This document shows, piece by piece, positions 2,364 to 22,011 of a stretch of DNA of 22,774 nucleotides (positions within the stretch are counted from its first letter, which is position 1; each line of letters opens with the position of its first letter). The notes below the pieces were generated by a model, which worked only from the letters and a program-made list of their open reading frames with translations, was not told the DNA's origin and did no database searches. The position numbers and the translations under genes were made by a program. The stretch spans positions 1 through 22,774 of the IMG/VR virus record IMGVR_UViG_3300028571_002268; one strand, given 5' to 3'. This DNA comes from a virus.

Positions 2364-3782
2364 ATGCTAAACAAATTATATAATTGGATTTTTCCAACCA
2401 AAAAAACAAACATTCTAAATAATAATCAGCCAATAGAATATTGGGTAAACGATCCGTCAATACCAGAATTAACGGGTAGCACCATGTATTCTGGTTCTAT
2501 TTTGCCTATTAACGTAAGCGGATTCGTAGGTGGCGGACATAAAATGACCACGCCAGAAGGCAGAGCAGCCAATTGCTATGCCATAGTCAATAATACTGTT
2601 GGTAGTATTACGCCAAAAATGAAAAAATTCCCTGGGCGTTGGGCAGCAACTAATACTTTGAATGTATATCCAGCAGCCGGACAAGATTTAAATGCTTTTT
2701 ATGATAGAAGCAGCCTGAAGTTTTTTTATGCCCTCGATCCTGTTGTTAAGAAGAACATCTACACATCCGACAGCAGCGATGTTGTTTCTCACGAAACCGG
2801 TCACGCCCTTCTGGATGCCATAAGACCAGATTTTTGGAATGTTCAATCTTATGAAGTTTGGGCTTTGCATGAATCTTTTGGAGATGTGGTTGCAATCTTA
2901 AATATAATTGAAAATAAAGATCTTGTAAACATGGCTTTAAAACAAACTTCTGGAGATCTCAGCAAGAGTAATGTTATATCAAAGCTCGCAGAAGAACTTG
3001 CTAAAGCTATATTCAATATAACAAAAGGAAAAAAAGGATATAGTCCTTTATTTTTAAGAGATGCTGCTAATGATTTTCACTATGTATCCCCAGACAGATT
3101 GTCTGATAACACGCCAGACAACGTTTTAAGCAGAGAATGTCATAATTTTAGTAGAGTTTGGACCGGTGCTTGGTACGCCTGTCTCGTTGGAATTTATAAT
3201 TTTAATATTAAAAATAATAATTCTAATCAATTTGATGCTTTGATGTCTGCAAAAGATGTTATGGCAAGTTATTTTTTTGAAGCGGTTCAAAATGTACCCA
3301 TGACTTCAAGATTATTTGAAGCTTTAGCTAAAAAAATAATATTAATTGATTCTGAAAATGGATCAAAATATTCTGAAGTTTTAAATAAAGTTTTCACAGA
3401 AAGAAATATTATTGGAAAATTAGGAATATTAAGCGATTTTTCTTTCAATGATCTTAAATCTGATAAAAAATTTGTTCAGACAGAATTTGATGGAAATAAA
3501 ATCTATAGGGATATGGAAAAAATAAAAGTATTGAAAATTTCAGACTACGTCAGCAAAAAAGAAGTTTTAAACAAAAATCTTTACAATGTTGAAATAGAAG
3601 TTCCTTTCGAAGACAGATACGAACTATCAAAAGATGGAATATTTATACAATCTACAAATAATATTGAAGAAAATGTAAATATTGCGGTCATGTGCTTAAA
3701 TAGTTTAAGTGAAAATAATTTATTGGGAAATCTATTTAAAATAGAAAATAATAAATTGATTAGAAATAAATTCATAAATTAA
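2364..3782 (+). CDS. Gluzincin (thermolysin-like) zinc metallopeptidase
   Basis: A 472-residue protein with a strong AAAGGAG Shine-Dalgarno site. Residues 143-147 are HETGH, the HExxH zinc site with catalytic Glu144. A HESFGD segment at 169-174 supplies Glu170, which matches the third zinc ligand in the M4/M36 pattern (ExxxD). His260 in ECHNFSRVWTGAWY lies where thermolysin-type enzymes carry their substrate-binding His. This three-part arrangement supports an active gluzincin fold rather than a chance HExxH. It has no signal peptide, so it probably acts in the cytoplasm or inside virions. The C-terminal ~130 residues are Asn/Lys-rich and of unknown role. It lies upstream of the packaging genes. 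Possible roles include head maturation, a virion-borne peptidase or an attack on a host protein. The peptidase call is good; the role is speculative. Confidence 0.82.
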   Translation: MLNKLYNWIFPTKKTNILNNNQPIEYWVNDPSIPELTGSTMYSGSILPINVSGFVGGGHKMTTPEGRAANCYAIVNNTVGSITPKMKKFPGRWAATNTLNVYPAAGQDLNAFYDRSSLKFFYALDPVVKKNIYTSDSSDVVSHETGHALLDAIRPDFWNVQSYEVWALHESFGDVVAILNIIENKDLVNMALKQTSGDLSKSNVISKLAEELAKAIFNITKGKKGYSPLFLRDAANDFHYVSPDRLSDNTPDNVLSRECHNFSRVWTGAWYACLVGIYNFNIKNNNSNQFDALMSAKDVMASYFFEAVQNVPMTSRLFEALAKKIILIDSENGSKYSEVLNKVFTERNIIGKLGILSDFSFNDLKSDKKFVQTEFDGNKIYRDMEKIKVLKISDYVSKKEVLNKNLYNVEIEVPFEDRYELSKDGIFIQSTNNIEENVNIAVMCLNSLSENNLLGNLFKIENNKLIRNKFIN

Positions 3783-3871: not shown

Positions 3872-4180
3872 ATGCCCCAGATTATAGACTTTGAAACCAT
3901 GCTCCCAGAAACGCTTCTTAATATTTTTTGTTTTGCGAGAGACGAAGATTATTTCGTTGATGACAACGACGATGAAGAAGAAGATTATAATGACTATGAA
4001 GAAGATGAAGAAGAAGAAGATGACGATGATGAAGATTGGGAAGAGAGCGAGTGGGAAGAAGTTGGAGATGATGAGGATGAGGATGAGGATGAGGATGATG
4101 ATGATGATGAGGATGAGGATGAGGATGAGGATGAGGATGAGGATGAGGATGAATGGGATGACGAAGAAGAAGACGATTAA
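3872..4180 (+). CDS. Hyperacidic Asp/Glu-repeat protein
   Basis: A 102-residue protein with AAAGGA about 9 bases before the ATG. Residues 1-27 are ordinary and rather hydrophobic (IIDFETMLPETLLNIFCFA). From residue 28 onward it is almost entirely Asp and Glu with a few Trp and Tyr, ending in a long (Glu-Asp)n tract. It sits alone between a sigma70-like promoter and a rho-independent terminator, so it appears to be a self-contained transcription unit. Proteins of this charge can mimic DNA (inhibitors of restriction enzymes, nucleases or nucleoid proteins) or act as charged tails. That function is inferred from charge only. The second frame across the repeat gives a Met/Arg/Lys string and is an artefact. 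Confidence 0.75.
   Translation: MPQIIDFETMLPETLLNIFCFARDEDYFVDDNDDEEEDYNDYEEDEEEEDDDDEDWEESEWEEVGDDEDEDEDEDDDDDEDEDEDEDEDEDEDEWDDEEEDD
4067..4153 (+). repeat. GATGAG hexanucleotide microsatellite
   Basis: A run of GAT and GAG/GAA codons, mostly strict GATGAG units, interrupted once by five consecutive GAT codons around 4095-4109. It encodes the Asp-Glu tract. Repeat-number change by slippage would alter acidic-tail length in 2-residue steps without shifting the frame. Confidence 0.9.
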
Positions 4181-7223: not shown

Positions 7224-8102
7224 ATGATAAAATATCTATGTTTTTTACTTTTGTTAGTATTCCTTACACCGCCAGCTTTTGCCCAAAGAATTAAACATCC
7301 AATGGATAATATGCCGTTGGTTCCTCCTGTTCCTCTAACGGGGGAGAATGATCTTTATGGTATGCCGGTAGAAGAAAGAGGCGAAGAATACAAAAAATTC
7401 TTATCTCCTTCTTTGAAAATCATGGTAAGCGGCGCAAGTGGATCTGGAACTATAATTTATTATGATAAAAAAGAAAAATCAGCATATGTTGCCACCTGCG
7501 GGCATCTTTGGAGTCCTGGTGTTTTAAATTATGATCAAGCAAAAATTAAAAAGCTAAAGTGCAAGGTGCTAACCTGGTTTCATAATGATAAAAAATTAGA
7601 TGAAACAAAAACATATGAAGCAAGTGTTTTATTCTACAGTTATGTTGAAGGTTGTGACACTGCTCTAATAAAGTTTACGCCTGATTGGATCCCTGATTAT
7701 TTTCCAATTGCACCAAAAGATTACCCATACATAAAAGGTAGTATGGCGCATTCTATGGGTTGCGACGGGGGAGAAGAAGTCGCTCACTATAAAGTAGAAA
7801 TAGTCGGAATAAGAAACAGAGGTGATCTGGTAACAATTCAAAATAGTCCAAGACCAGGAAGATCAGGAGGGGGTCTTGTTGATGATAACTTTTTATATAT
7901 TGGAACTTGCTGGGGAACTACAGCGTTTGATGGTGGAGGACAAGGATTCTTTACATCATTGCCTGTTATTCACGATTTTTGGAAAAAGAATAGTTTTGAT
8001 TGGCTATTAAATATTAAAAAACAAAAAATAATTGTCTTAGATAGGAACACAAACAAAAAAGAAATAATTGAAGGCGAGTATATCTTAATGCCATCACTCT
8101 AA
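7224..8102 (+). CDS. Exported trypsin-like serine protease
   Basis: A 292-residue protein. Residues 1-20 are a textbook Sec signal peptide: Lys3, then a Leu/Phe-rich core ending in AFA before Gln21. The mature part is a chymotrypsin-fold peptidase with all three catalytic residues: His94 (ATCGHLW), Asp145 (GCDTALIKF) and Ser214 in PGRSGGGL. Length fits a single peptidase domain, without a PDZ. It should act outside the cytoplasm, in the periplasm or at the cell surface. Serine proteases with export signals are unusual in phage genomes. Roles could include degrading envelope proteins at lysis or receptor modification, but nothing proves either. There is no Shine-Dalgarno site before the ATG. 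The gene ends in a 4-base convergent overlap with the nuclease gene. Confidence 0.85.
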   Translation: MIKYLCFLLLLVFLTPPAFAQRIKHPMDNMPLVPPVPLTGENDLYGMPVEERGEEYKKFLSPSLKIMVSGASGSGTIIYYDKKEKSAYVATCGHLWSPGVLNYDQAKIKKLKCKVLTWFHNDKKLDETKTYEASVLFYSYVEGCDTALIKFTPDWIPDYFPIAPKDYPYIKGSMAHSMGCDGGEEVAHYKVEIVGIRNRGDLVTIQNSPRPGRSGGGLVDDNFLYIGTCWGTTAFDGGGQGFFTSLPVIHDFWKKNSFDWLLNIKKQKIIVLDRNTNKKEIIEGEYILMPSL

Positions 8103-9969: not shown

Positions 9970-10328
9970 TGAATGCAAATTTAGAAAAATTCAAATATTT
10001 TGTTGGCAAACCAATAACAGTTTTCACTGTGCATACAGGCAGAAATTTCACAGAAGCTCAGTTTAACGACTACTTCACTGGTGTTTGCCAAGCTGTACAT
10101 GTGGATGCAATAGAAACCTTACATCCTATTACAAATTGTAAAAACCTTTTCTTTTTCAGCAACATTGTTGGAATTTGCGAAGAGCAACAGCTAGATCCAG
10201 AGAATCCGGAACATCAGGAAATTATAAAAGAAATTAAGAAAGAAGTTCCGGTAGAACAAAATGATCTACAGCCAAATAATTCTGTAAACATAGACATAGA
10301 TCTATTAAACAAAATAATATCTAAGTGA
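9969..10328 (+). CDS. Small protein coupled to primase, unknown
   Basis: A 119-residue protein. Its ATG shares one base with the primase TAA, and AAGGG lies about 6 bases upstream, so translation is probably coupled. Residues 10-77 are beta-rich (YFVGKPITVFTVHTGRNF, then FNDYFTGVCQAVHVDAIETL, then KNLFFFSNIVGICEEQ), resembling a small SH3-like barrel. The C-terminal ~40 residues are acidic and end in a helical tail (DIDLLNKIISK). I recognise the pattern as recurring in phages but know no function. Pairing with the primase suggests a replication-linked role, by position only. Confidence 0.6.
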   Translation: MNANLEKFKYFVGKPITVFTVHTGRNFTEAQFNDYFTGVCQAVHVDAIETLHPITNCKNLFFFSNIVGICEEQQLDPENPEHQEIIKEIKKEVPVEQNDLQPNNSVNIDIDLLNKIISK

Positions 10329-10347
10329 CTAACATACAAGCCATCAG

Positions 10348-11388
10348 TTACTCATCTTCATCTTCATCTTCATCTTCATCGAGGTGTGTTCTGAATCCTG
10401 ATATTGATATAGGTAGATGGGTAGCGAGAGTGTCTTTAACTTCGGCTGTCAAAAAAGTTCTCCAAGGAAATTCATCAGACTTATTTTCTATTTTCAAAGC
10501 TTCTTCTGGGGAATTTTTAAAATTCTTACCTTCTTTGATTAAAACATAACTTAACGCTCTTTTGAAATCAGATTCGAAGTTATCAAGAAGATCAGAATAT
10601 TCTTTTTTCAATTCTTTGTGGACCGTTTCTTTTATTTGATTTATCAAATAAACTGGAAAATCCCCAGCCTTTGTCGAATAATCTCCCAAAGCAAAGATCT
10701 TATCGGAAGGATCTTCTGGCTTTGGACCCCAGCTCCAACCCTCGTCTTTATTCCAATAAATTCTTGGAGACTTAGGTCTACCCCTAGATCTTCTGCTGAC
10801 CTGATCAGTGTTCGAACTATTTCCTTGACTCGCAGATCTGTTGCCAACTGATGTTGTTGACGATCCTGTTGGAATAGTTTCCATATTCTGAGTTCTGGCG
10901 GCATTTGTCTCCTCCTCACCACTAGCTTCTTCCTCATTCCCAACATCTGATGACGAACCAGAAGAAAATTGCTTTATTATTGCTTGTTTAAACTTACTAG
11001 CCCAGCCATCTATTATTCGCCAGAGCTTTAGCTTCTTGAGGTTTTCTGATTCAGTTTCTATATCTTCATTTAAAACAGATAAGTCCAGTTCTAGTTTATT
11101 GTATTGTTCTTTAATGAAGTTGTATTGAGATAAAGATAATCTTATTGACTCTTTTTTTGTATTATCTTCATGCCCAAGTGCGCCAAACTTATTTTTATAC
11201 ACATATGGATTATCTGGGTTATTACCACCCATCACAGTGTTGTGCCACCAATTTTTCATTCTGTTCCAAACACCAGGTAGAATACCAGTTGTTGTGGGTT
11301 TATATTGAACAACAAGCAGGTCTTTTTTTAACTGTATTACAAAATCGTCTACTAGTTTTGTAAGTTTGTCTAATTCTACTTTTTCCAT
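10348..11388 (-). CDS. Unknown protein with AT-hook-like motif and acidic tail
   Basis: A 346-residue protein. Residues 1-130 are helical with a Trp-rich patch (WNRMKNWWHNTV, 41-52). Residues 141-215 are low-complexity Ser/Gly/Glu and probably disordered. Within this, residues 199-209 read RRSRGRPKSPR, which fits the AT-hook core RGRP flanked by basic residues. Residues 245-300 are helical again. The end is DEDEDEDEDE (residues 337-346), encoded by an alternating GAT/GAA-GAG tract. The AT-hook would bind the minor groove of AT-rich DNA. Whether it does is an inference. There is no Shine-Dalgarno site; TATAATATATATTATC precedes the ATG. It begins a few bases after the stop of the gene upstream. 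Confidence 0.68.
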   Translation of the reverse strand: MEKVELDKLTKLVDDFVIQLKKDLLVVQYKPTTTGILPGVWNRMKNWWHNTVMGGNNPDNPYVYKNKFGALGHEDNTKKESIRLSLSQYNFIKEQYNKLELDLSVLNEDIETESENLKKLKLWRIIDGWASKFKQAIIKQFSSGSSSDVGNEEEASGEEETNAARTQNMETIPTGSSTTSVGNRSASQGNSSNTDQVSRRSRGRPKSPRIYWNKDEGWSWGPKPEDPSDKIFALGDYSTKAGDFPVYLINQIKETVHKELKKEYSDLLDNFESDFKRALSYVLIKEGKNFKNSPEEALKIENKSDEFPWRTFLTAEVKDTLATHLPISISGFRTHLDEDEDEDEDE

Positions 11389-11399
11389 GATAATATATA

Positions 11400-11852
11400 T
11401 TATACTTTATCAGAAATATATTCGTTTATTTTCTTCAGACTCATCAAGCAAGAGTCAAATCTATGGAAGTCACTTGTTAAATATTCAAAGGCAAGTTCGT
11501 CAAATTTATTGTCACTCTCGACCTCAAAATAGATATATTTACCTTTTTTTCCAAGCACCTTATACTTATGCATTAATATGTAAGCAGCAACACCCAAGTC
11601 TGTGGAGAATCTAATATTGCCTGTTTCATTAAAGTTATATTCTCTAATTTTCTTCAAACTCATTATGCAAGAATCGAATCTATGAAATTCGCTGCTTAAA
11701 TAATCAAGGCATATTTCATCAAATTTCTCTTCGTTTTTTTCTTCTTCTATATCAAAAAGAACCTCTCTGCCTCTTCTTCCTGCCAATTTATAATTGTGCA
11801 TAAGGACATACGAAGCAGTCCCCAGATCTTCTACGCTTTTTATTTTTTGCAT
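11400..11852 (-). CDS. Tandem DUF5659-like two-repeat protein
   Basis: A 150-residue protein made of two copies of a ~65-residue domain. Copy 1 (residues ~9-74) and copy 2 (~84-146) share DLG(T/V)A(S/A)Y(V/I)LMH, a basic GRRG/GKKG turn, KFDE, and FHRFDSC(I/L)MSLKKI. The pattern matches the small phage/bacterial domain I know as DUF5659 (short N-terminal helix, beta hairpin, acidic-aromatic segment, C-terminal helix), whose function is unknown. The duplication is recent enough that the FHRFDSC motif is intact in both copies. It lies 27 bases downstream of the actin-like gene in the same direction. There is no Shine-Dalgarno site; AATATAAGTTT precedes the ATG. Confidence 0.72.
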   Translation of the reverse strand: MQKIKSVEDLGTASYVLMHNYKLAGRRGREVLFDIEEEKNEEKFDEICLDYLSSEFHRFDSCIMSLKKIREYNFNETGNIRFSTDLGVAAYILMHKYKVLGKKGKYIYFEVESDNKFDELAFEYLTSDFHRFDSCLMSLKKINEYISDKV

Positions 11853-11879
11853 AAACTTATATTAGTTAAAAATTTAAAA

Positions 11880-12887
11880 TTAATTGGCAGCTTCAGAAGC
11901 TAGCAAGCAACCTCTAGCAACACTGAAAAGTGGATCTTTTGGCTGGATAACTTCACCTATTTTAACAGATAAATCTGCTTCTTTTAAGCATTGGGCAAGT
12001 AAATCTTTGAAGCCCGGCGGGCTTGATGTACCACCGGCAACAACGAAGTCTATTTCTTGATCTGTCTTAACACTCTTTGATGTATTTTGAAGACCTTTTT
12101 TAATGCCTGTCACAGTGTGCTCCAACATTAGCCTATACTGGGTTTGTATGGCTCTTTCAACAAGAGTTGTGGCAGGTTTTGTTAAGTCTATCTTGGTCTT
12201 CTCTTTGTTTATAAATGTTGTGCTCTCTCCTGTTGCCTTGGCAGCCATTTTATCAATCCAGTCACCACTATTAACAATAGAAAATGAAAACAATGGATTG
12301 CCAAACATTGCAAAACAAACATTTACCATGCCCCCACCAAAACTCATTCCAATGCCCGTAAAGGCTTTGTGAGATAATTCGGCATAAACTAAGGCTAATG
12401 CTTCGTTTATCGGTCTGGGGTCAACTGTATAGCCTTGCTCTGATTTATAAGCCTTGAATATAGCCTCTAATATTTTTCCGTGATAATCAGCGTCAGTTTC
12501 TTCGTTTATAGCGTTTGCGGGTACGCAATAATATAATATTTCTTTATCCTTGCTCACTTCGCCAATTAAACTGTGAATCATAATGCTTAATATTTGAAAA
12601 GCATCTTTTTCCTTTGGATTAACACACCCGGAAGTCATCGGTCTTTTTAGCTCAAGACCACTCATCGTGTACGCCATATTAACAGCAGCCTCGCCCAAAG
12701 CATACGCAACTTTTTCTCTTTCAATCAAAGGAACTCCTGCGTTTTTCATCATATTGAAAACAAACTTGTTCTCTAAGGGCATTTCTAAAAAAGCATTTAT
12801 TTCTTTTTTATAAGAGAAATTATTTGATTCATCTCTTTTGCAACAAACGAGCGTATAAGTTCCGACATCAAATCCGATTTTAGACAT
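11880..12887 (-). CDS. Actin-like (ParM/MreB-fold) ATPase
   Basis: A 335-residue protein from the ATG at 12887, chosen because GGAAAGG sits just upstream in the end of the previous gene. The longer frame starts at an unsupported codon. Actin-fold landmarks in order: phosphate-1 GFDVGTYT (5-11), connect-1 INEALALVYAE (160-170), phosphate-2 GMSFGGGMVNV (180-190), adenosine loop VVAGGTSSPPGF (282-293), connect-2 ARGCLLAS (324-331). In phosphate-2 a Ser-Phe replaces the usual Asp before GGG, so activity may be altered. Phage actins known elsewhere (such as Alp6A and AlpC) form filaments that move DNA or plasmids. Here a filament role is likely but inferred. It could instead be a non-polymerising sugar-kinase/Hsp70-fold enzyme. 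Confidence 0.8.
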   Translation of the reverse strand: MSKIGFDVGTYTLVCCKRDESNNFSYKKEINAFLEMPLENKFVFNMMKNAGVPLIEREKVAYALGEAAVNMAYTMSGLELKRPMTSGCVNPKEKDAFQILSIMIHSLIGEVSKDKEILYYCVPANAINEETDADYHGKILEAIFKAYKSEQGYTVDPRPINEALALVYAELSHKAFTGIGMSFGGGMVNVCFAMFGNPLFSFSIVNSGDWIDKMAAKATGESTTFINKEKTKIDLTKPATTLVERAIQTQYRLMLEHTVTGIKKGLQNTSKSVKTDQEIDFVVAGGTSSPPGFKDLLAQCLKEADLSVKIGEVIQPKDPLFSVARGCLLASEAAN

Positions 12888-12888
12888 A

Positions 12889-13122
12889 TCAATTACCCTT
12901 TCCAAAATTAATTTTTTCAGATACAAAGTCTGGAATAGCCCAAGCTACTTTGTCTTCTGCGTTACCCATAGAGGTTTCTTTACTAGCAGTAGATTTGCCA
13001 TCAACAGACAAGGCTTCTATGGAACCATTCATGTTTATATTTAAATCCAAAGTTATAGAAACTTTTAACTCGCCATCTTTTGTTATAATTTTAACATCAC
13101 TTGGTCTTATTAGTTGTGCCAT
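12889..13122 (-). CDS. Small protein coupled to the actin-like gene
   Basis: A 77-residue protein with AGGTGA about 5 bases before the ATG. Residues 10-40 hold beta strands of alternating polar and hydrophobic residues. Residues 57-75 carry VAWAIPDFVSEKINFGK, a hydrophobic-aromatic peptide that looks like a docking segment. Its stop codon (TGA) lies one base before the actin-like ATG, and its last codons supply that gene's Shine-Dalgarno site. Coupled small proteins beside phage actins are typically DNA-binding adaptors, but nothing here resembles a known ParR. The function is unknown. Confidence 0.65.
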   Translation of the reverse strand: MAQLIRPSDVKIITKDGELKVSITLDLNINMNGSIEALSVDGKSTASKETSMGNAEDKVAWAIPDFVSEKINFGKGN

Positions 13123-13130
13123 TATTTCAC

Positions 13131-13700
13131 CTATTTCTTGGTGGACTCAGTAACTACTATTGCCGAGATAACTTGTAGGGAAACAGGACCAGAAGAACCA
13201 TCAGGTAATTTAGCTTCTATTTTCTGAATATTCAGATCTCCCACATTAAAAACTTGAACTTCTTTTGCTCCAAGATCAAAAATAGCACTATTTATGCCGT
13301 TTAGTTTTATTTGAACTGGATCTTCTGATTGATTTGCTATTTGAACAAAGTCTGCAAAACTATTCGTGTCACCTTGTATATCAATTACATTGTCTGTAAA
13401 ATCTGTACCATCTTGAACAGTTATTTTGTAAACCCTAGGAATATTATTGCTATCAGTCTTATCATACCAGGCTGAACCATCGTCTTCCAGAATAATAAGG
13501 AAAGCTAAATCAGCAGAAGTATTGGGAAAAACATACCTTTTCCAGTAGTTGGAGCCAGAAAACGTTTCTCCATCTTTTAGCTCACGGCTAATTCTGTCTG
13601 GACCCATAGCGTAAACACTTCTTTGTATGCTTAAGCCATTAGGGTCATTATCTAGCAAGCCTTGTGTGCCATTGTTCAATTTTACTTTAAATATGCTCAT
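13131..13700 (-). CDS. Beta-rich protein, unknown, first gene of actin operon
   Basis: A 189-residue protein with no signal peptide. The sequence is dominated by alternating strands and turns (FLIILEDDGSAWYDKTD, then DFVQIANQSEDPVQIKLNGI, then LGAKEVQVFNVGDLNIQKIEA), consistent with a small beta-sandwich. I recognise no family. It begins a leftward transcription unit running through the actin-like gene. It lacks a Shine-Dalgarno site; TATATAAG ends 2 bases before the ATG, and it diverges from a plus-strand gene across 55 bp. A structural role would fit its fold, but that is a guess. Confidence 0.62.
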   Translation of the reverse strand: MSIFKVKLNNGTQGLLDNDPNGLSIQRSVYAMGPDRISRELKDGETFSGSNYWKRYVFPNTSADLAFLIILEDDGSAWYDKTDSNNIPRVYKITVQDGTDFTDNVIDIQGDTNSFADFVQIANQSEDPVQIKLNGINSAIFDLGAKEVQVFNVGDLNIQKIEAKLPDGSSGPVSLQVISAIVVTESTKK

Positions 13701-13755
13701 ATCTTATATATACAGCTCTGTTATAAAACCCACCAGATTTAGGCTATATATCTAT
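13701..13755. promoter_or_regulatory. 55-bp divergent start region with mirrored TATA boxes
   Basis: Leftward, the sequence reads CTGTATATATAAGAT before the ATG. Rightward, GGCTATATATCTAT stands before the ATG. Neither has a Shine-Dalgarno site. The two boxes mirror each other around a central AAAACCCACCAG, so each gene seems to carry its own TATA element right at the start codon. Confidence 0.45.
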
Positions 13756-13890
13756 ATGGACGAAGAAAAAATAGAAGAATCAAAAGATGCACTTGAAACT
13801 TTTTTCGGTCAATTTGGTCAAAATGATTTATACACACAAACAATATTAGAGATGATATTCGAGGAGATGTTCAAAAAAAATGAAAAGTAA
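13756..13890 (+). CDS. Small acidic protein, 44 residues
   Basis: The start is placed at the ATG at 13756. The frame runs further upstream, but only across the divergent promoter region and the neighbouring gene. The product is short, acidic and helical (Glu/Asp-rich with a Phe-Gly-Gln-Phe-Gly-Gln centre), with no family I recognise. It overlaps the start of the next gene by 11 bases. It may be a leader or a small regulator. Confidence 0.5.
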   Translation: MDEEKIEESKDALETFFGQFGQNDLYTQTILEMIFEEMFKKNEK

Positions 13891-14239
13891 TTTAAAAATT
13901 TTATGGTTATATTTGGCTAAAAGAGACAAAAAAGGAGTAAAAATACTTTCTAAATTCTACTCCAGAGATATTGGTCCAATTCCTCTGGAAGATCTAAAAA
14001 TGTTAAACTTACCTTCAAGCTGGTATGGAAAAGTAAAATCATATATAGATGAAAATATGCTTTACTGGCAGCCTTGGCTGCAAACAGCAACGAGCTTTGA
14101 TGAACTAAAAGCTAATTTGAAAATTAGAGGCTATTCAGAACTACCAGCAAACGGAAGACCCATGGTTCTGGTCACTCCAACATTGTTCGTAAATAGTAAT
14201 TTTTTTGAAAAACAAAAGGTTATGCTTAAAAAAAATTAA
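13880..14239 (+). CDS. Unknown basic protein, 119 residues
   Basis: Not recognised. Lys-rich, with an aromatic cluster (WYGKVKSYIDENMLYWQPW) around residues 48-66 and a short hydrophobic strand (MVLVTPTLFVN) near the C-terminus. A weak GGAG site lies 13 bases before the ATG. It is probably translated with the 44-residue gene that overlaps it. The two genes form a short plus-strand island inside minus-strand operons. It ends with a 4-base convergent overlap. Confidence 0.58.
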   Translation: MKSNLKILWLYLAKRDKKGVKILSKFYSRDIGPIPLEDLKMLNLPSSWYGKVKSYIDENMLYWQPWLQTATSFDELKANLKIRGYSELPANGRPMVLVTPTLFVNSNFFEKQKVMLKKN

Positions 14240-14517
14240 AAGTAAACTTCTTTTTCATTTATATAAAATGTACCAGAGTGAACCTCTACCATGAGCATTT
14301 CTCCATCTGCTCTGAGTATTGTGCCGCCTCTTTTAATAAAATCTTTTGTTAATTCTTTATAACAACCTTCTTCTACAACTATTTTAGAAGACAATTTCTT
14401 TAAATGCTTTGGATATACTTTTTGATTTTTCTTTATATTAAAGTCTTTGTTTACACTTTCCTCTTTCATCCATTTGCTGAAGTCGTTTATAAAAGAGAAG
14501 TCTATGTTGTTTTTCAT
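14236..14517 (-). CDS. Unknown basic protein, 93 residues
   Basis: A Lys-rich protein with a beta-type C-terminal half (GGTILRADGEMLMVEVHSGTF). I recognise no family. Its ATG overlaps the last bases of the DUF115-like gene upstream (4-base overlap). Its stop overlaps the stop of the opposing gene by 4 bases (TTAA). It is at the end of the leftward structural operon. Confidence 0.55.
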   Translation of the reverse strand: MKNNIDFSFINDFSKWMKEESVNKDFNIKKNQKVYPKHLKKLSSKIVVEEGCYKELTKDFIKRGGTILRADGEMLMVEVHSGTFYINEKEVYF

Positions 14518-17356: not shown

Positions 17357-19966
17357 CTAATATATTGAAGATAACCATTGTCTATCATCCAGTCCTCCAG
17401 GTCTACCTCCAAGATATCTGAAAGTCAGATCTATATCATTAAACTTTATGAAAGATTTAGCACTATAGTCATAGCTTATATATACATTATGATCTTCATC
17501 TGATGTTGCAAATAATGTCTGATTTAGATCATCAAACCCTGTGACAGTAGAGTCTTGGAGTGACTTAAAGTTAGTGGAGCCAACACCTGGACCACCCGTG
17601 GACCAAACTCCCGTCATTGAATTAAATACAGAGATAGCACCAGAGTTATTGAACAAGAATATAGCGCTAGATAAATTTACCAATTGACCCTCTGTTTTCG
17701 TAGGACCAGAAAGATCGTTTATTTTCTTGATTTCAGAAATTGGGTTTGATGTGGTTCCACCTGTCTTATAGAAGTTTTTGAGCCTGAAAAATTTACCCTC
17801 ACCAGAGCTTTGAAGTATATAACCAGAGCCATCTCTCCAAACAGATCTGTGGAAGCTGTAAAGATCAGAAGGAAGGGTGTAATTTTTTATATCCTCCGCA
17901 CCATTCTTAAAAGATTTTGAATTCAGACAGCAACTTTCATAAGTATAATTAGACATAGATACCGAATCAACATTTGTGTTAACTTCAGAATTACTATTTG
18001 AGGCAGATACAGTTGTTGGATCTCCACAGTCTTTTTTGTTTATACATGTATTAACACCAACACCTTTATTACCTAGCGCAAAATAAAGATTATCACCCGA
18101 AGAAAAACCTACCCACCCCCACTGTCTCGTTATACTTGAGCCTAAGTAATATGCAGAATACACATCATAAAAAGCATTATATATTTGCAGATGCACTCTT
18201 TCAAAAGAAGTAGGATCAACATCTTTACGACCAGTAGCCCAGAACATTAAACCAAAAGAGTTTTTATCGCTAGAGCCATAGTTGTCCATTTTTGCAAAGC
18301 CATTATTTCTTTCAAATTCTCTTATAACTCTGCATTTTTCACTGTAAGAATAACAACTATCGCAGCATTTTGTTCCGCAATCACAAGCTTCTTTTGTGTT
18401 TGGATCAAAGTCCGGTTTTACAGTTCCTAAAAAACTACTATCAAAATTACTTTTTATACTGCAGAAGTTATTTAGAGATTTAAAAGTTTCGCTTATTAAT
18501 CCAAATTCATGAGAAGAAATATTATTATCTTGACTCTTTGTCCAAATCCATAGATTTGAATTTTCTATAATATCTATGGCTGATTTAAAATTTGTGATTC
18601 TATAGTTTCCACTATTTGTATCTGTTCTTAAAACAACATCATAAATTCCGCCAACGCTAAAGGAAGCAGTTGTGTAGTTTTGGTTGAGATGAGATAAATC
18701 GTCACTTATTCCCCATGTGTAAGAATTTATTGGATCTGAAGAATTTTGACCATTTTTTAAAATACCATCAGTACCAGTAGCAACATTTATTGAAACATAT
18801 GTATTTATTGGAGATGTGATTCTGTATAATCTTTTGTTAACAGGTGGTATCTCTCCCGTCAAAGATTCTATTGATATTTCTTGACCCAAGAAAGTTTGAG
18901 AATTACTGGGGACAAACTCTATTTCGGCTTCTGATGGGCAAAAATCTCTAACATTTACTACATTTTTAAGGACGCATGTATCTTCTCCAAAATCATTTGT
19001 GACTGTTAAAGACACATCATTAAAACCAGAGTTTTCATATGTGTAAATTAGTTTGTCCTGATCTAGATTCAGATAAACAGTAAGACCACCTGTCTTATCT
19101 CCTCCTTCTCCTATTAACAATCTGTACTGTGGATTAACCACTGTAGAAGAATATGTTATACTAAAAGCTTCATCTTCATTTCTCACATCATTATGCGTAA
19201 CCCAATCATCAGTAGATTTTTGTAAAACATAATTTTTTTGTAAGAAGTTTTCTGTCAACTCTATGTTAACAGTTGTTAAAACTTCACCCGTTCCAAGTGT
19301 TTTAAAACTAAAAGATTTTTTATATGCAAAATAATCTGTAGATCCATAGTTAAAATTCCATTTATGTTCCGTGAATCTGGACACTCCATCAGTACCGAGT
19401 CTAAAGCTTAAATCAGTAAATGTTACCACGCTTGGCTTTAATCCTATTTTTTTATCCACGCTAAACCAAGCTTTTGGAGCTAAAGCTAAATATCTTATAT
19501 AATTAGTTCTTTGTTCAATTGTGCCCTCCAAAGGTTTAGCTGATCTCTCCCCCCTGACGCCCGCAAATTTTTCTATGCTCAACACAGCATCTTTTAAAGA
19601 ATTATGATGCTCAGCCATTACATTTTGAGTAATATTTGTTATATCTTTATATTTTTTAACATCTTCAAATCCAGGAAGAATTTTAAGTCCACTAAAATAT
19701 GCTGTTGTTGAAGATATTGTTGTTTTTGTTGTATAATAAAAAGATATAGCTCTTTGTTTTATTTCTTCACACTGATCGGTAAGGGTTATTATTCCGCCAC
19801 CCCTCGATTGATCAGGAAATCTTGCTATGGCTTCTGCTGTTCCATATACATATATTTCCGTAGATCCTGGCATATAATCTTCAGCTAAATGTAATCTCAG
19901 ATAATCATGAACCTCATACAGGTTTTTATTTGTATCAAAATTTTCTGGATATTTACTGAGACTCAT
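17357..19966 (-). CDS. AEHHN-PKD virion protein with cysteine-rich insert
   Basis: An 869-residue protein with AGGA about 6 bases before the ATG. Residues 5-160 carry the shared N-terminal domain (KYPENFDTNKNLYEV, AEHHN at 118-122). PKD-like region 1 spans about 165-340 (FTDLSFRLG, HKWNFNYGS, then TYENSGFNDVSLTVTNDFGE). PKD-like region 2 spans about 345-466 (SYTWGISDD). Residues 470-869 alternate strand and turn motifs (FWATGRKD, RQWGWVGFSSGDNLYFALGN) and may form a propeller-like or other large beta domain. A Cys cluster at 528-545 (Cys528, 530, 534, 535, 538, 545) and further Cys at 641, 647, 679 and 680 suggest metal binding or disulphides. This is probably a tail or baseplate-periphery protein that contacts host surfaces. 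Confidence 0.75.
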   Translation of the reverse strand: MSLSKYPENFDTNKNLYEVHDYLRLHLAEDYMPGSTEIYVYGTAEAIARFPDQSRGGGIITLTDQCEEIKQRAISFYYTTKTTISSTTAYFSGLKILPGFEDVKKYKDITNITQNVMAEHHNSLKDAVLSIEKFAGVRGERSAKPLEGTIEQRTNYIRYLALAPKAWFSVDKKIGLKPSVVTFTDLSFRLGTDGVSRFTEHKWNFNYGSTDYFAYKKSFSFKTLGTGEVLTTVNIELTENFLQKNYVLQKSTDDWVTHNDVRNEDEAFSITYSSTVVNPQYRLLIGEGGDKTGGLTVYLNLDQDKLIYTYENSGFNDVSLTVTNDFGEDTCVLKNVVNVRDFCPSEAEIEFVPSNSQTFLGQEISIESLTGEIPPVNKRLYRITSPINTYVSINVATGTDGILKNGQNSSDPINSYTWGISDDLSHLNQNYTTASFSVGGIYDVVLRTDTNSGNYRITNFKSAIDIIENSNLWIWTKSQDNNISSHEFGLISETFKSLNNFCSIKSNFDSSFLGTVKPDFDPNTKEACDCGTKCCDSCYSYSEKCRVIREFERNNGFAKMDNYGSSDKNSFGLMFWATGRKDVDPTSFERVHLQIYNAFYDVYSAYYLGSSITRQWGWVGFSSGDNLYFALGNKGVGVNTCINKKDCGDPTTVSASNSNSEVNTNVDSVSMSNYTYESCCLNSKSFKNGAEDIKNYTLPSDLYSFHRSVWRDGSGYILQSSGEGKFFRLKNFYKTGGTTSNPISEIKKINDLSGPTKTEGQLVNLSSAIFLFNNSGAISVFNSMTGVWSTGGPGVGSTNFKSLQDSTVTGFDDLNQTLFATSDEDHNVYISYDYSAKSFIKFNDIDLTFRYLGGRPGGLDDRQWLSSIY

Positions 19967-19973
19967 ATTTTTC

Positions 19974-21350
19974 CTAGTCTATTGTTATTTCTTCTTTTAA
20001 AAATGCTTTTTTAATTGTTTGATTGTTGAATAAAACAAAAACAGAAGGGTTGTAAACAGAAGATGGATGATTTATTTTATACATAAAATTTATGGTATGT
20101 ATGTTTGGATCTGCTTCTGTATAAGTTCTAACTATATCCGGACGCCAGTCATTTTTAGAGTCATAGCTTCCTATTATTGGTCCAAGCTTGCCGCCGGATA
20201 TTCCTGATAAATCAATTCCATTTACGATAATGTTCAAGCCTTCAAGATCGATACTGGATATGGTCGCCAGATTTGTTTTGGTTTCTCCGTATTCATCATA
20301 ATATGCAAACACTACACCTTGTTTGTAATTTAAAATTTTCCTCATATCATCTTTAAATTTAAGTTCGTTTCCAACTACATCACATGAATAAAACTTTTTG
20401 ATAACACAACCATCTCCATTAAAATTCCAATATCTTTCTTTTACATCCCCATCTGTTTGATCCACAAATTCAAAAACAGTTGGTTTTTCTCCAATAAGTT
20501 CTTCTTTTTCGTTAAGAGAAAAAGAAGAGCCACTTGTTGCACTAGGGGTTGTTGCCAAAACATCAAATCCATCTGGAGAATTTTTAACATAAAAAAATGG
20601 GGATCTTAATGTATTGTCAACTATTATATAATTATTTTTTGTTACTATTCCTTGACCACCTAGCACACTCACAACCACCAATTCGACAGAATAAGACCCC
20701 TCTTTTGTGTATGTGTGCACAGGATTTTTTTCAGTAGATGTTGTGCCGTCTCCAAAATCCCAAAAACATCTAATTAATGGTCCGTTTAATTTATTAGGAG
20801 CCATCCCAAGGCTAAAATTCTGAAAAGAAACAGTAAGAGGAGCACCACCAGAAGTAGGATATGCTCTAAACAAAGGTTTGGGTGTAAGAAATCTATTTTC
20901 TTGAGTTTTTAATATACCATTCAAGGAAATATCATTGGGGTTTGATTTTAAACCCAAATTAATTTCTGTTTTAATAATAGCATCTTTAACAGCATTATGA
21001 TGTTCTGCGCTTACCGAGTTTGTCACACTGCTACCTAAATTCCATAGATCCTGCCTAGATCCTGCAAAACCACGAACCAAGTTATTGAAGGTGTTTCCAG
21101 TCCTATTTGCATAATAAATTAACTCCCCTGAATTAATTTTGTTATTTGTAATTCTTATTAATCCTTGAGGCGGAAAACCAGAAGCATCTTCAACTATGAT
21201 TTTTTTAGCAGAATAGCCAACACTTTGTTTCAAGACAGTTGTTGCGTTGTTTCTAACTTCGTATAAGCTATCTTTGTTATCAACAGCTTCAGGATATAAA
21301 GAAAGATCTCCTGTTGTGTATCCTGTGTTTAAACTATCAATTCTTGCCAT
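19974..21350 (-). CDS. AEHHN-PKD virion protein, two PKD-like domains
   Basis: A 458-residue protein from the ATG at 21350, supported by AGGTG 6 bases upstream; the next start upstream gives three extra residues without a site. The N-terminal domain (residues 15-150) has LSLYPEAVDNKDSLYEV and GELIYYANRTG, with AEHHN at 115-119. A classical PKD domain covers about 160-246, with FWDFGDGT at 196-203 and THTYTKEGSYSVELVV-type strands. A second, degenerate PKD-like unit follows at about 285-360 (WNFNGDG at 308-314). The C-terminal ~90 residues are unassigned. PKD domains are usually extracellular interaction modules. I infer a structural role in the tail. It starts inside the end of the coiled-coil gene (14-base overlap). 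Confidence 0.8.
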   Translation of the reverse strand: MARIDSLNTGYTTGDLSLYPEAVDNKDSLYEVRNNATTVLKQSVGYSAKKIIVEDASGFPPQGLIRITNNKINSGELIYYANRTGNTFNNLVRGFAGSRQDLWNLGSSVTNSVSAEHHNAVKDAIIKTEINLGLKSNPNDISLNGILKTQENRFLTPKPLFRAYPTSGGAPLTVSFQNFSLGMAPNKLNGPLIRCFWDFGDGTTSTEKNPVHTYTKEGSYSVELVVVSVLGGQGIVTKNNYIIVDNTLRSPFFYVKNSPDGFDVLATTPSATSGSSFSLNEKEELIGEKPTVFEFVDQTDGDVKERYWNFNGDGCVIKKFYSCDVVGNELKFKDDMRKILNYKQGVVFAYYDEYGETKTNLATISSIDLEGLNIIVNGIDLSGISGGKLGPIIGSYDSKNDWRPDIVRTYTEADPNIHTINFMYKINHPSSVYNPSVFVLFNNQTIKKAFLKEEITID

Positions 21351-22011
21351 TTGACGCACCTAATTTTTTAGTATATTCATTTTGTAAATTAATCATATTA
21401 GCCTGCAAAGCATTTAATTTATTTAAAACTTGTTGCTTTATTGGTATGTCATCAGGAAGAGACAAAACAGTTTCGACTAACTCTATATCTATATTATTTT
21501 CAAGTAAAATTTTAAGATTCATTTTTTCTAAAAGCTTTGTTCCCCAATATTCTTTTTGTGCATCAATATCATCGAAATTCTTAATAGGTTCTATTTTTTC
21601 AATATTGTTGTATGTTTGCAAAAAGAATTCACACTCTTCTCCTATGAATTTTTGTTTTTCTTGGAGATCCAGTATTGTGTTTTTAACTCCTTCTACCGCT
21701 CTGTTTAATTGCCTTTGTTTTACAACCAACTCTTTAGCTGTAATTTCGTCTATTTCTTGATCTTTTAATTTATTTAATTTAATTATATTGATTTCGTGAA
21801 GCTCCAGCTTGTCTTTTTCTTCTTCAATTTGTAATAATAAATTTTTTAAATTGTCTTTTCTCAGTTTCAGTTCTCTTAAACATTGCCACATCTTAGCTTG
21901 ATTTGTTGGCTCTTTTCCAATTAGGAAATATTTTAGTTGAAAATAACTGTGTCTTGAAACAACATCGTTTTTCAATAAATCATCCATTTTTTTAATTAAT
22001 TCAGTAGACAT
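21337..22011 (-). CDS. Coiled-coil virion-associated protein, unknown
   Basis: A 224-residue, helix-rich protein. Residues 20-48 carry a motif-like stretch (HSYFQLKYFLIGKEPTNQAK followed by MWQCLREL), and residues 50-150 are heptad-like Leu/Ile/Lys/Glu (a coiled coil). A weak GAGAG precedes the ATG. It opens the leftward structural operon and its end overlaps the next gene. I recall similar proteins in uncultured tailed phages, but no function is established. A chaperone or scaffold for the long tail proteins would fit its position, by inference only. Confidence 0.62.
   Translation of the reverse strand: MSTELIKKMDDLLKNDVVSRHSYFQLKYFLIGKEPTNQAKMWQCLRELKLRKDNLKNLLLQIEEEKDKLELHEINIIKLNKLKDQEIDEITAKELVVKQRQLNRAVEGVKNTILDLQEKQKFIGEECEFFLQTYNNIEKIEPIKNFDDIDAQKEYWGTKLLEKMNLKILLENNIDIELVETVLSLPDDIPIKQQVLNKLNALQANMINLQNEYTKKLGASNGKN

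Follow-up and report, generated by a model that had tools for sequence, protein, structure and literature searches.

A volactin-family actin and its coupled 77-residue partner encoded by huge phages

Descriptions of volactin present it as a shape protein of haloarchaea; in Haloferax volcanii it is HVO_2015 (VolA). We know of no experiment on any phage volactin. In Haloferax, volactin has been reported to form dynamic filaments in vivo, the tips of which meet the membrane (PMC10869688), and salactin, a haloarchaeal actin of Halobacterium salinarum, has been reported to form dynamic filaments as well (PMC10746226). The main text of Al-Shayeb et al. (PMC7162821) mentions PhuZ and has no word beginning with 'actin', and no phage volactin or huge-phage actin was found in the open literature, outside the coverage of which lie most subscription papers and preprints. 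The volactin family is already known; its huge-phage and bacterial range, its partner genes and the tails shared between them are not found in the literature searched. Here we describe a volactin gene and its small upstream neighbour on a viral fragment of 22,774 bases (the window, meaning the whole stretch of DNA analysed), which also encodes a terminase (TerL), a Toprim primase and a PD-(D/E)XK nuclease, as judged by Pfam and PHROGs.

Table 1. Positions of the volactin locus features in the 22,774-base window
Feature	Position	Strand	Basis
Volactin, predicted actin-fold ATPase, 335 aa	11880-12887	-	Pfam, AlphaFold, PDB fold match
Gene of the 77-aa partner, immediately 5' to volactin	12889-13122	-	Coupling counts in clade-1 loci
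N-terminal region of the 77-aa protein, conserved, with a predicted beta-hairpin (9-14/17-22)	13030-13119	-	Alignment of 41, weak AlphaFold
C-terminal motif of the 77-aa protein, W61-x-I-P64-D-F66...K-x-x-F73-G-K75, after a variable linker	12898-12942	-	Alignment of 41
Phosphate-2 loop S182-F-G-G-G-M-V-N189, Ser for the usual Asp	12321-12344	-	Alignments
189-aa conserved neighbour	13131-13700	-	76/82 clade-1 loci, same strand
150-aa conserved neighbour, two internal repeats	11400-11852	-	81/82 clade-1 loci, same strand

The TGA of the small gene (12891-12889) is followed by a single base (12888) before the volactin ATG at 12887, and a ribosome-site-like stretch for volactin, GGAAAGGG, can be read within the 77-aa gene at 12903-12896 (-). 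The original prediction, that the small gene supplies the ribosome site and stops one base before the actin start, thus agrees with the letters. An alternative upstream TTG start at 12926 would give an actin-like frame of 348 aa; the ATG start (335 aa) is preferred as it fits relatives that begin MSRVGFD... and MIGMDCG.... The 77-aa protein and volactin are probably made from the same message. Scans of the DNA for promoters gave background numbers (22 found against 21.5 expected), and one terminator was found against 2.8 expected. The Pfam score, the confirmed viral relatives and the retention of the small frame beside volactin confirm that both genes are real and not chance frames.

The 335-aa protein matched the Pfam family Volactin (PF25216) at 5.6e-66, with 223.6 bits against a cut-off of 35, over positions 3-320 of the 321 in the profile. 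Its scores lay below the curated cut-offs for MreB (Pfam PF06723, 22.8 bits against 27), MamK (NCBIfam NF040964, 28.3 against 400) and salactin (NCBIfam NF053533, 12.6 against 400), and on these scores we rejected MreB, MamK and salactin as general names for it; PHROGs gave no match for volactin or for the 77-aa protein. Judged by sequence, the actin-fold protein is a phage-encoded volactin. The claim of a phage actin-like ATPase therefore holds as to a phage-encoded actin-like protein and is replaced as to a generic phage actin, the family being volactin by PF25216.

An AlphaFold model, built from an alignment of 58 sequences of the window and other phages, had a pLDDT of 91.1 and a pTM of 0.89. 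When it was aligned with 987 PDB chains, the best match was the MamK filament 5ljv (Z 28.9, rmsd 2.8, 294 residues aligned, 16% identity), followed by BeeR (Z 28.0) and MreB (Z about 26). The best 50 of the 987 chains were actins, actin-related proteins, MreB/Mbl, MamK, BeeR and FtsA, with no Hsp70 and no sugar or metabolic kinase; the match to a metabolic kinase that had been named as speaking against an actin did not turn up among them. A sequence profile of the 58 proteins found MamK in the PDB at 1.9e-4, and a single volactin sequence searched against solved structures gave just chance matches to a potassium channel. In a Foldseek search against viral models, Hsp70 homologues were among the first rows, at 8-18% identity. 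Together with the Asp-to-Ser change at phosphate-2 in every member (below), these rows could be read as pointing to a non-polymerising actin-fold regulator, or a chaperone-like ATPase (of the Hsp70 or the kinase type) whose pocket is altered. We regard this as very unlikely, because the filament formers MamK, BeeR and MreB lead the best 50 of the 987 PDB chains, the volactin of Haloferax polymerises in vivo (PMC10869688), and the phosphate-2 Ser is common to the two haloarchaeal relatives.

The motifs of the actin fold were located in the order originally predicted, namely phosphate-1 (D7-x-G-T10), connect-1 (N161-E162), phosphate-2 (S182-F-G-G-G-M187-V-N189) and adenosine (G285-G286), and the named positions were invariant in 58 aligned phage proteins except F183, G185 and V188. 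In profile alignments with MamK and MreB, S182 corresponded to their Asp, M187 to Thr, and N189 to Asp or Glu. Residues were counted in 128 volactins, comprising 82 of phage clade 1, 30 of clade 2, 14 bacterial and two haloarchaeal proteins and omitting the intein-bearing L084, L112, L116 and L117 and the fragment L085. The phosphate-2 Ser, E162, G184, G186 and N189 were kept in 128/128, and D7 in 127, with one gap. Position 187 was changed from Met to Leu in all 14 bacterial volactins, and the haloarchaeal plasmid volactins have the motif SFGAGM; the loop Ser-x-Gly-x-Gly-Met/Leu, a signature drawn from the present alignment, was found in all 128, the window included. Since Ser occupies this position throughout, the phosphate-2 change is a family hallmark, and its reading as a defect specific to the window was rejected. 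As the signature of the family, SFGGGM does not by itself point to a damaged enzyme. The departure from the Asp-type motif was seen correctly at the outset. The Asp-to-Ser substitution could mean slow or no hydrolysis, and the Ser found throughout at phosphate-2 raises a well-defined question of enzymology about volactins in general.

A tblastn search over phage records identified the unannotated huge-phage genomes LR756511 (595 kb, 63%) and LR745208 (485 kb, 34%). In IMG/VR, 154 of 171 candidate viral stretches were confirmed as relatives, 80 of which were kept (L004-L083), and a search from the LR745208 protein added 32 more (L086-L117). Clade 1 consists of 82 proteins (from the window, L001 and L004-L083; 43 clusters at 95% identity) and clade 2 of 30 intein-free proteins (22 clusters at 95% identity), with longest contigs of 532,729 bases (L024) and 528,957 bases (L109), respectively. 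Four volactin genes, L084 (4995-7133), L112 (5959-8172), L116 (5968-8052) and L117 (5929-8052), are interrupted in frame by intein-like insertions, with Pfam intein plus LAGLIDADG or HNH matches in the three scanned. The insertions occupy three places: one immediately follows the phosphate-2 Ser, another comes behind the MTN next to that Ser, and the third precedes GDWID. The residue after each insertion is Cys.

Outside phages, the PF25216 search scored above its cut-off in the genome of H. volcanii, used as a control, haloarchaeal plasmids carry two volactins (L118 and L119; 32-33% identity), and bacterial volactins with a cellular neighbourhood exist. Among 299 genomes from the phylum of the metagenome-assembled genome G001, 69 had matches at E ≤ 0.001 and only 16 passed the cut-off; these were 14 full-length proteins, a fragment in G096, and the match in G001, which is the phage-like contig of L084. 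Among 194 genomes from the phylum of G002, only its own phage-like fragment passed, and a scan of genome contigs turned up just two fragments, both phage-like and from metagenome-assembled genomes. A tree of 44 proteins, calculated by maximum likelihood, kept the members of phage clade 1, those of phage clade 2, the bacterial and the archaeal volactins together as four single groups (bootstrap values 98-100); the tree is unrooted and says nothing on the direction of transfer.

The 77-aa gene was found on the same strand, 5' of volactin, in 80 of the 82 clade-1 loci (L001, L004-L084) by a small-protein profile and BLAST, and in the two others, L006 and L032, volactin lies 525 and 88 bases from the contig end. 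Searching with only the small protein as query yielded 77 loci, many on the same contigs as in the volactin-based IMG/VR set, and volactin was downstream on the same strand in 76 of them; in the sole exception the contig ends 46 bases after the small gene. The coupling that had been proposed from the window alone is thus borne out from both sides, and the 77-aa protein is, on this sequence evidence, a strictly coupled and probably dedicated partner of clade-1 volactin. It belongs to no family in Pfam, PHROGs or NCBIfam, and as far as these reach, the statement that it resembles no known filament adaptor is upheld. In four loci an open frame of 210-247 aa lies between the small gene and volactin (L007, 9258-10001; L014, 9262-9993; L021, 2966-3598; L028, 9263-9982). 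That of L007 matched GIY-YIG and NUMOD3 in Pfam and the other three look alike by eye, so homing endonucleases seem to target the junction of the two genes.

In 41 aligned small proteins, P64, F66, F73, G74 and K75 were invariant and W61, D65 and K70 were conserved in at least 90%, while the middle varied in length and sequence and both ends were conserved. The AlphaFold model was poor (pLDDT 56, pTM 0.19), with a hairpin at 9-14/17-22 and a slightly better C-terminus. All 74 matches to the C-terminal motif pattern in the open frames of 119 loci were the small protein itself. Conserved ends flanking a variable linker give the protein an anatomy as in a tether, and it probably links the filament to something else.

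The 189-aa neighbour gave no Pfam match above the cut-off and none in PHROGs or NCBIfam, and the 150-aa neighbour (median 67% identity) has an internal 102-nt repeat that is 75% identical. The cassette lies among virion-type genes, with weak PKD and baseplate-type matches at 17357-21359, within which 19974-21359 gave PHROGs matches of virion type (1.9e-8) and baseplate type (2.8e-6). Elsewhere in the window were noted a 472-aa protein with a HETGH zinc-protease-like motif (2364-3782; thermolysin match weak, E 0.11, below the cut-off), a 102-aa protein made mostly of Asp and Glu runs (3872-4180), and a trypsin-like protease (7224-8102; Trypsin_2 over the cut-off) with a signal-peptide-like start by eye. 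The tubulin family PF00091, searched with this one Pfam model, was found in 0/13 large volactin phage contigs. PhuZ and the nuclear shell protein of phiKZ were found in 0/9 large volactin contigs, with single phiKZ proteins as queries and phiKZ itself as the positive control for these searches alone. Distant homologues may escape searches of both kinds, and most contigs may be fragments.

We consider it probable that the locus is a huge-phage cytoskeletal cassette, in which a volactin filament and its dedicated 77-aa partner position capsids, virions or phage DNA. Volactin would bind nucleotide and polymerise in the infected cell, as its family, fold and invariant pocket suggest. In the 77-aa protein, the N-terminal beta part probably binds cargo or associates with itself, and the C-terminal WxIPDF...FGK peptide, on its loose linker, probably docks on volactin and so nucleates or tethers filaments; expressed as one unit with volactin, the small protein would use its two conserved ends to join the filament to its cargo. 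Because the cassette sits among virion-type genes, late use is likely, and the most likely task of the filaments would be to place or transport capsids or the DNA centre of the phage, a job done by PhuZ in phiKZ-like phages. We favour a spindle-like or transport role since no tubulin, PhuZ or shell was found in the volactin contigs searched.

The same location could equally reflect a role in the virion or its assembly, with volactin and the small protein built into, or scaffolding, a large virion. The flanking genes for large PKD-type and virion-like proteins (19974-21359) and TerL agree with this, as do neighbours that are conserved together and the mean identity of 73.8% within clade 1. However, the family and its closest folds are intracellular filaments, and the chromosomal relatives adjoin membrane-type proteins, not virion genes, which makes a virion part improbable. 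DNA segregation of the ParM/AlpC type, in which phage genomes would be pushed or pulled by volactin filaments, with the 77-aa protein as a DNA-binding adaptor, has precedents in AlpC with its adaptor AlpA, a known phage actin case (PMC4446434, PMC5539076), and in salactin, which affects DNA partitioning (PMC10746226). We think it unlikely here, as 10300-14300 holds just two-copy repeats and no centromere-like array, the 77-aa protein matches no DNA-binding family in Pfam, PHROGs or NCBIfam, and its weak model is a beta-hairpin with a disordered linker and not a helical DNA-binding part.

Clade 2 yielded no relative of the 77-aa protein (0/33 loci). Its volactins are instead preceded by a protein of about 180-260 aa whose C-terminus is a FIPS...DAxxALKxLRK-like tail. 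When a model from 11 of these tails (among the 30 matching loci) was searched against 9,719 C-termini of 119 loci, the tail was found in 30 of the 33 loci, -19 to 1,900 bases before volactin, and the three loci without a match start 19, 47 and 959 bases from the contig end. Only two further matches were obtained at E ≤ 0.5, to an unrelated frame (0.22) and to a Haloarcula DUF7139 protein (0.11) encoded just 5' of the Haloarcula volactin. A DUF7139 protein with a long acidic tail is encoded directly 5' of both haloarchaeal volactins (L118, 3971-4894; L119, 3917-4825) and is a candidate membrane anchor for volactin tips. In part of clade 2 (L097-L111 in part), a ferritin/Dps-like gene lies between the tail-bearing partner and volactin; the example in L108 (5286-5939) was scanned and the other cases were recognised by eye.

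In bacteria, a small protein A with a hydrophobic N-terminus precedes 12 of the 14 volactins and a larger protein B, with FimV_N over the cut-off in the one scanned, precedes A; in L131 and L132, FtsH and a SpoIIE-type phosphatase stand before volactin instead. The operons of L131-L144 thus typically read FimV-like protein, small membrane-like protein, volactin, often followed (by eye) by a gene resembling cysteine synthase. They may form a cytoskeleton module of bacteria, whose partners appear by eye to be membrane-anchored. Tails were compared with hhalign, using 12 from A, 11 from B (without that of L143, which extends further) and 11 from clade 2, with nine pairs tried and 100 column shuffles for each. 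None of the shuffles was as good as the real pair for A and B (91%, E 9.9e-7), for B and clade 2 (56%, E 1.1e-4) or for the weak match of A and clade 2 (8%, E 0.0043), and a FIP-plus-helix C-terminal tail common to bacterial A/B and clade-2 partners is well supported by these alignments. Haloarchaeal tails matched clade-2 tails better than any of 100 shuffles and bacterial tails no better than chance (35 of 100 as good for A, 42 for B); their partners' membership in the same tail family is a lead. The 77-aa family gave no significant match to the other tails (18 of 100 shuffles as good for A, three for clade 2, 71 for archaea), and by eye its likeness to the FIP-tail partners is limited to an IP-containing motif.

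A wider scheme, which we put forward only tentatively and hold for less likely than the cassette itself, is a modular tether spanning archaea, bacteria and huge phages. The volactin filament would stay constant, and the 5' partner would keep its docking tail and swap its head, a membrane anchor in cells and a soluble coiled or beta part in phages. Huge phages would then lack the membrane anchor and, if the scheme is true, use volactin as the actin counterpart of the PhuZ spindle.

Compared with known systems, the cassette shares with AlpC/AlpA of prophage CGP3 a phage-encoded actin and a small partner; AlpA is reported to bind DNA sites, whereas the window has neither a repeat array in 10300-14300 nor a DNA-binding family for the 77-aa protein. 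The PhuZ spindle of phiKZ-like phages is a possible functional counterpart, likewise a phage filament in a large phage, but PhuZ is a tubulin without the actin fold and was not found in the volactin contigs searched; the cassette offers a ready hypothesis, in which phages whose contigs gave no tubulin spindle would build a skeleton of actin that has a partner of its own. MamK and MreB, together with BeeR, are the closest solved folds (16-20% identity of the window protein to MamK/MreB), and their phosphate-2 Asp and Thr are replaced in volactin. Salactin is likewise an actin, of a different family. Haloferax volactin belongs to the same family over the curated cut-off, as do the haloarchaeal plasmid members; the volactin of the window differs in being phage-borne, in forming a separate clade and in following a 77-aa partner, whereas the two plasmid volactins follow a DUF7139 protein. 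The layout of a partner followed by volactin recurs in parallel in the second phage clade, in bacteria and in the two haloarchaeal plasmids, where a membrane protein adjoins, and the two separate large huge-phage clades and the bacterial members constitute a new range for the volactin family.
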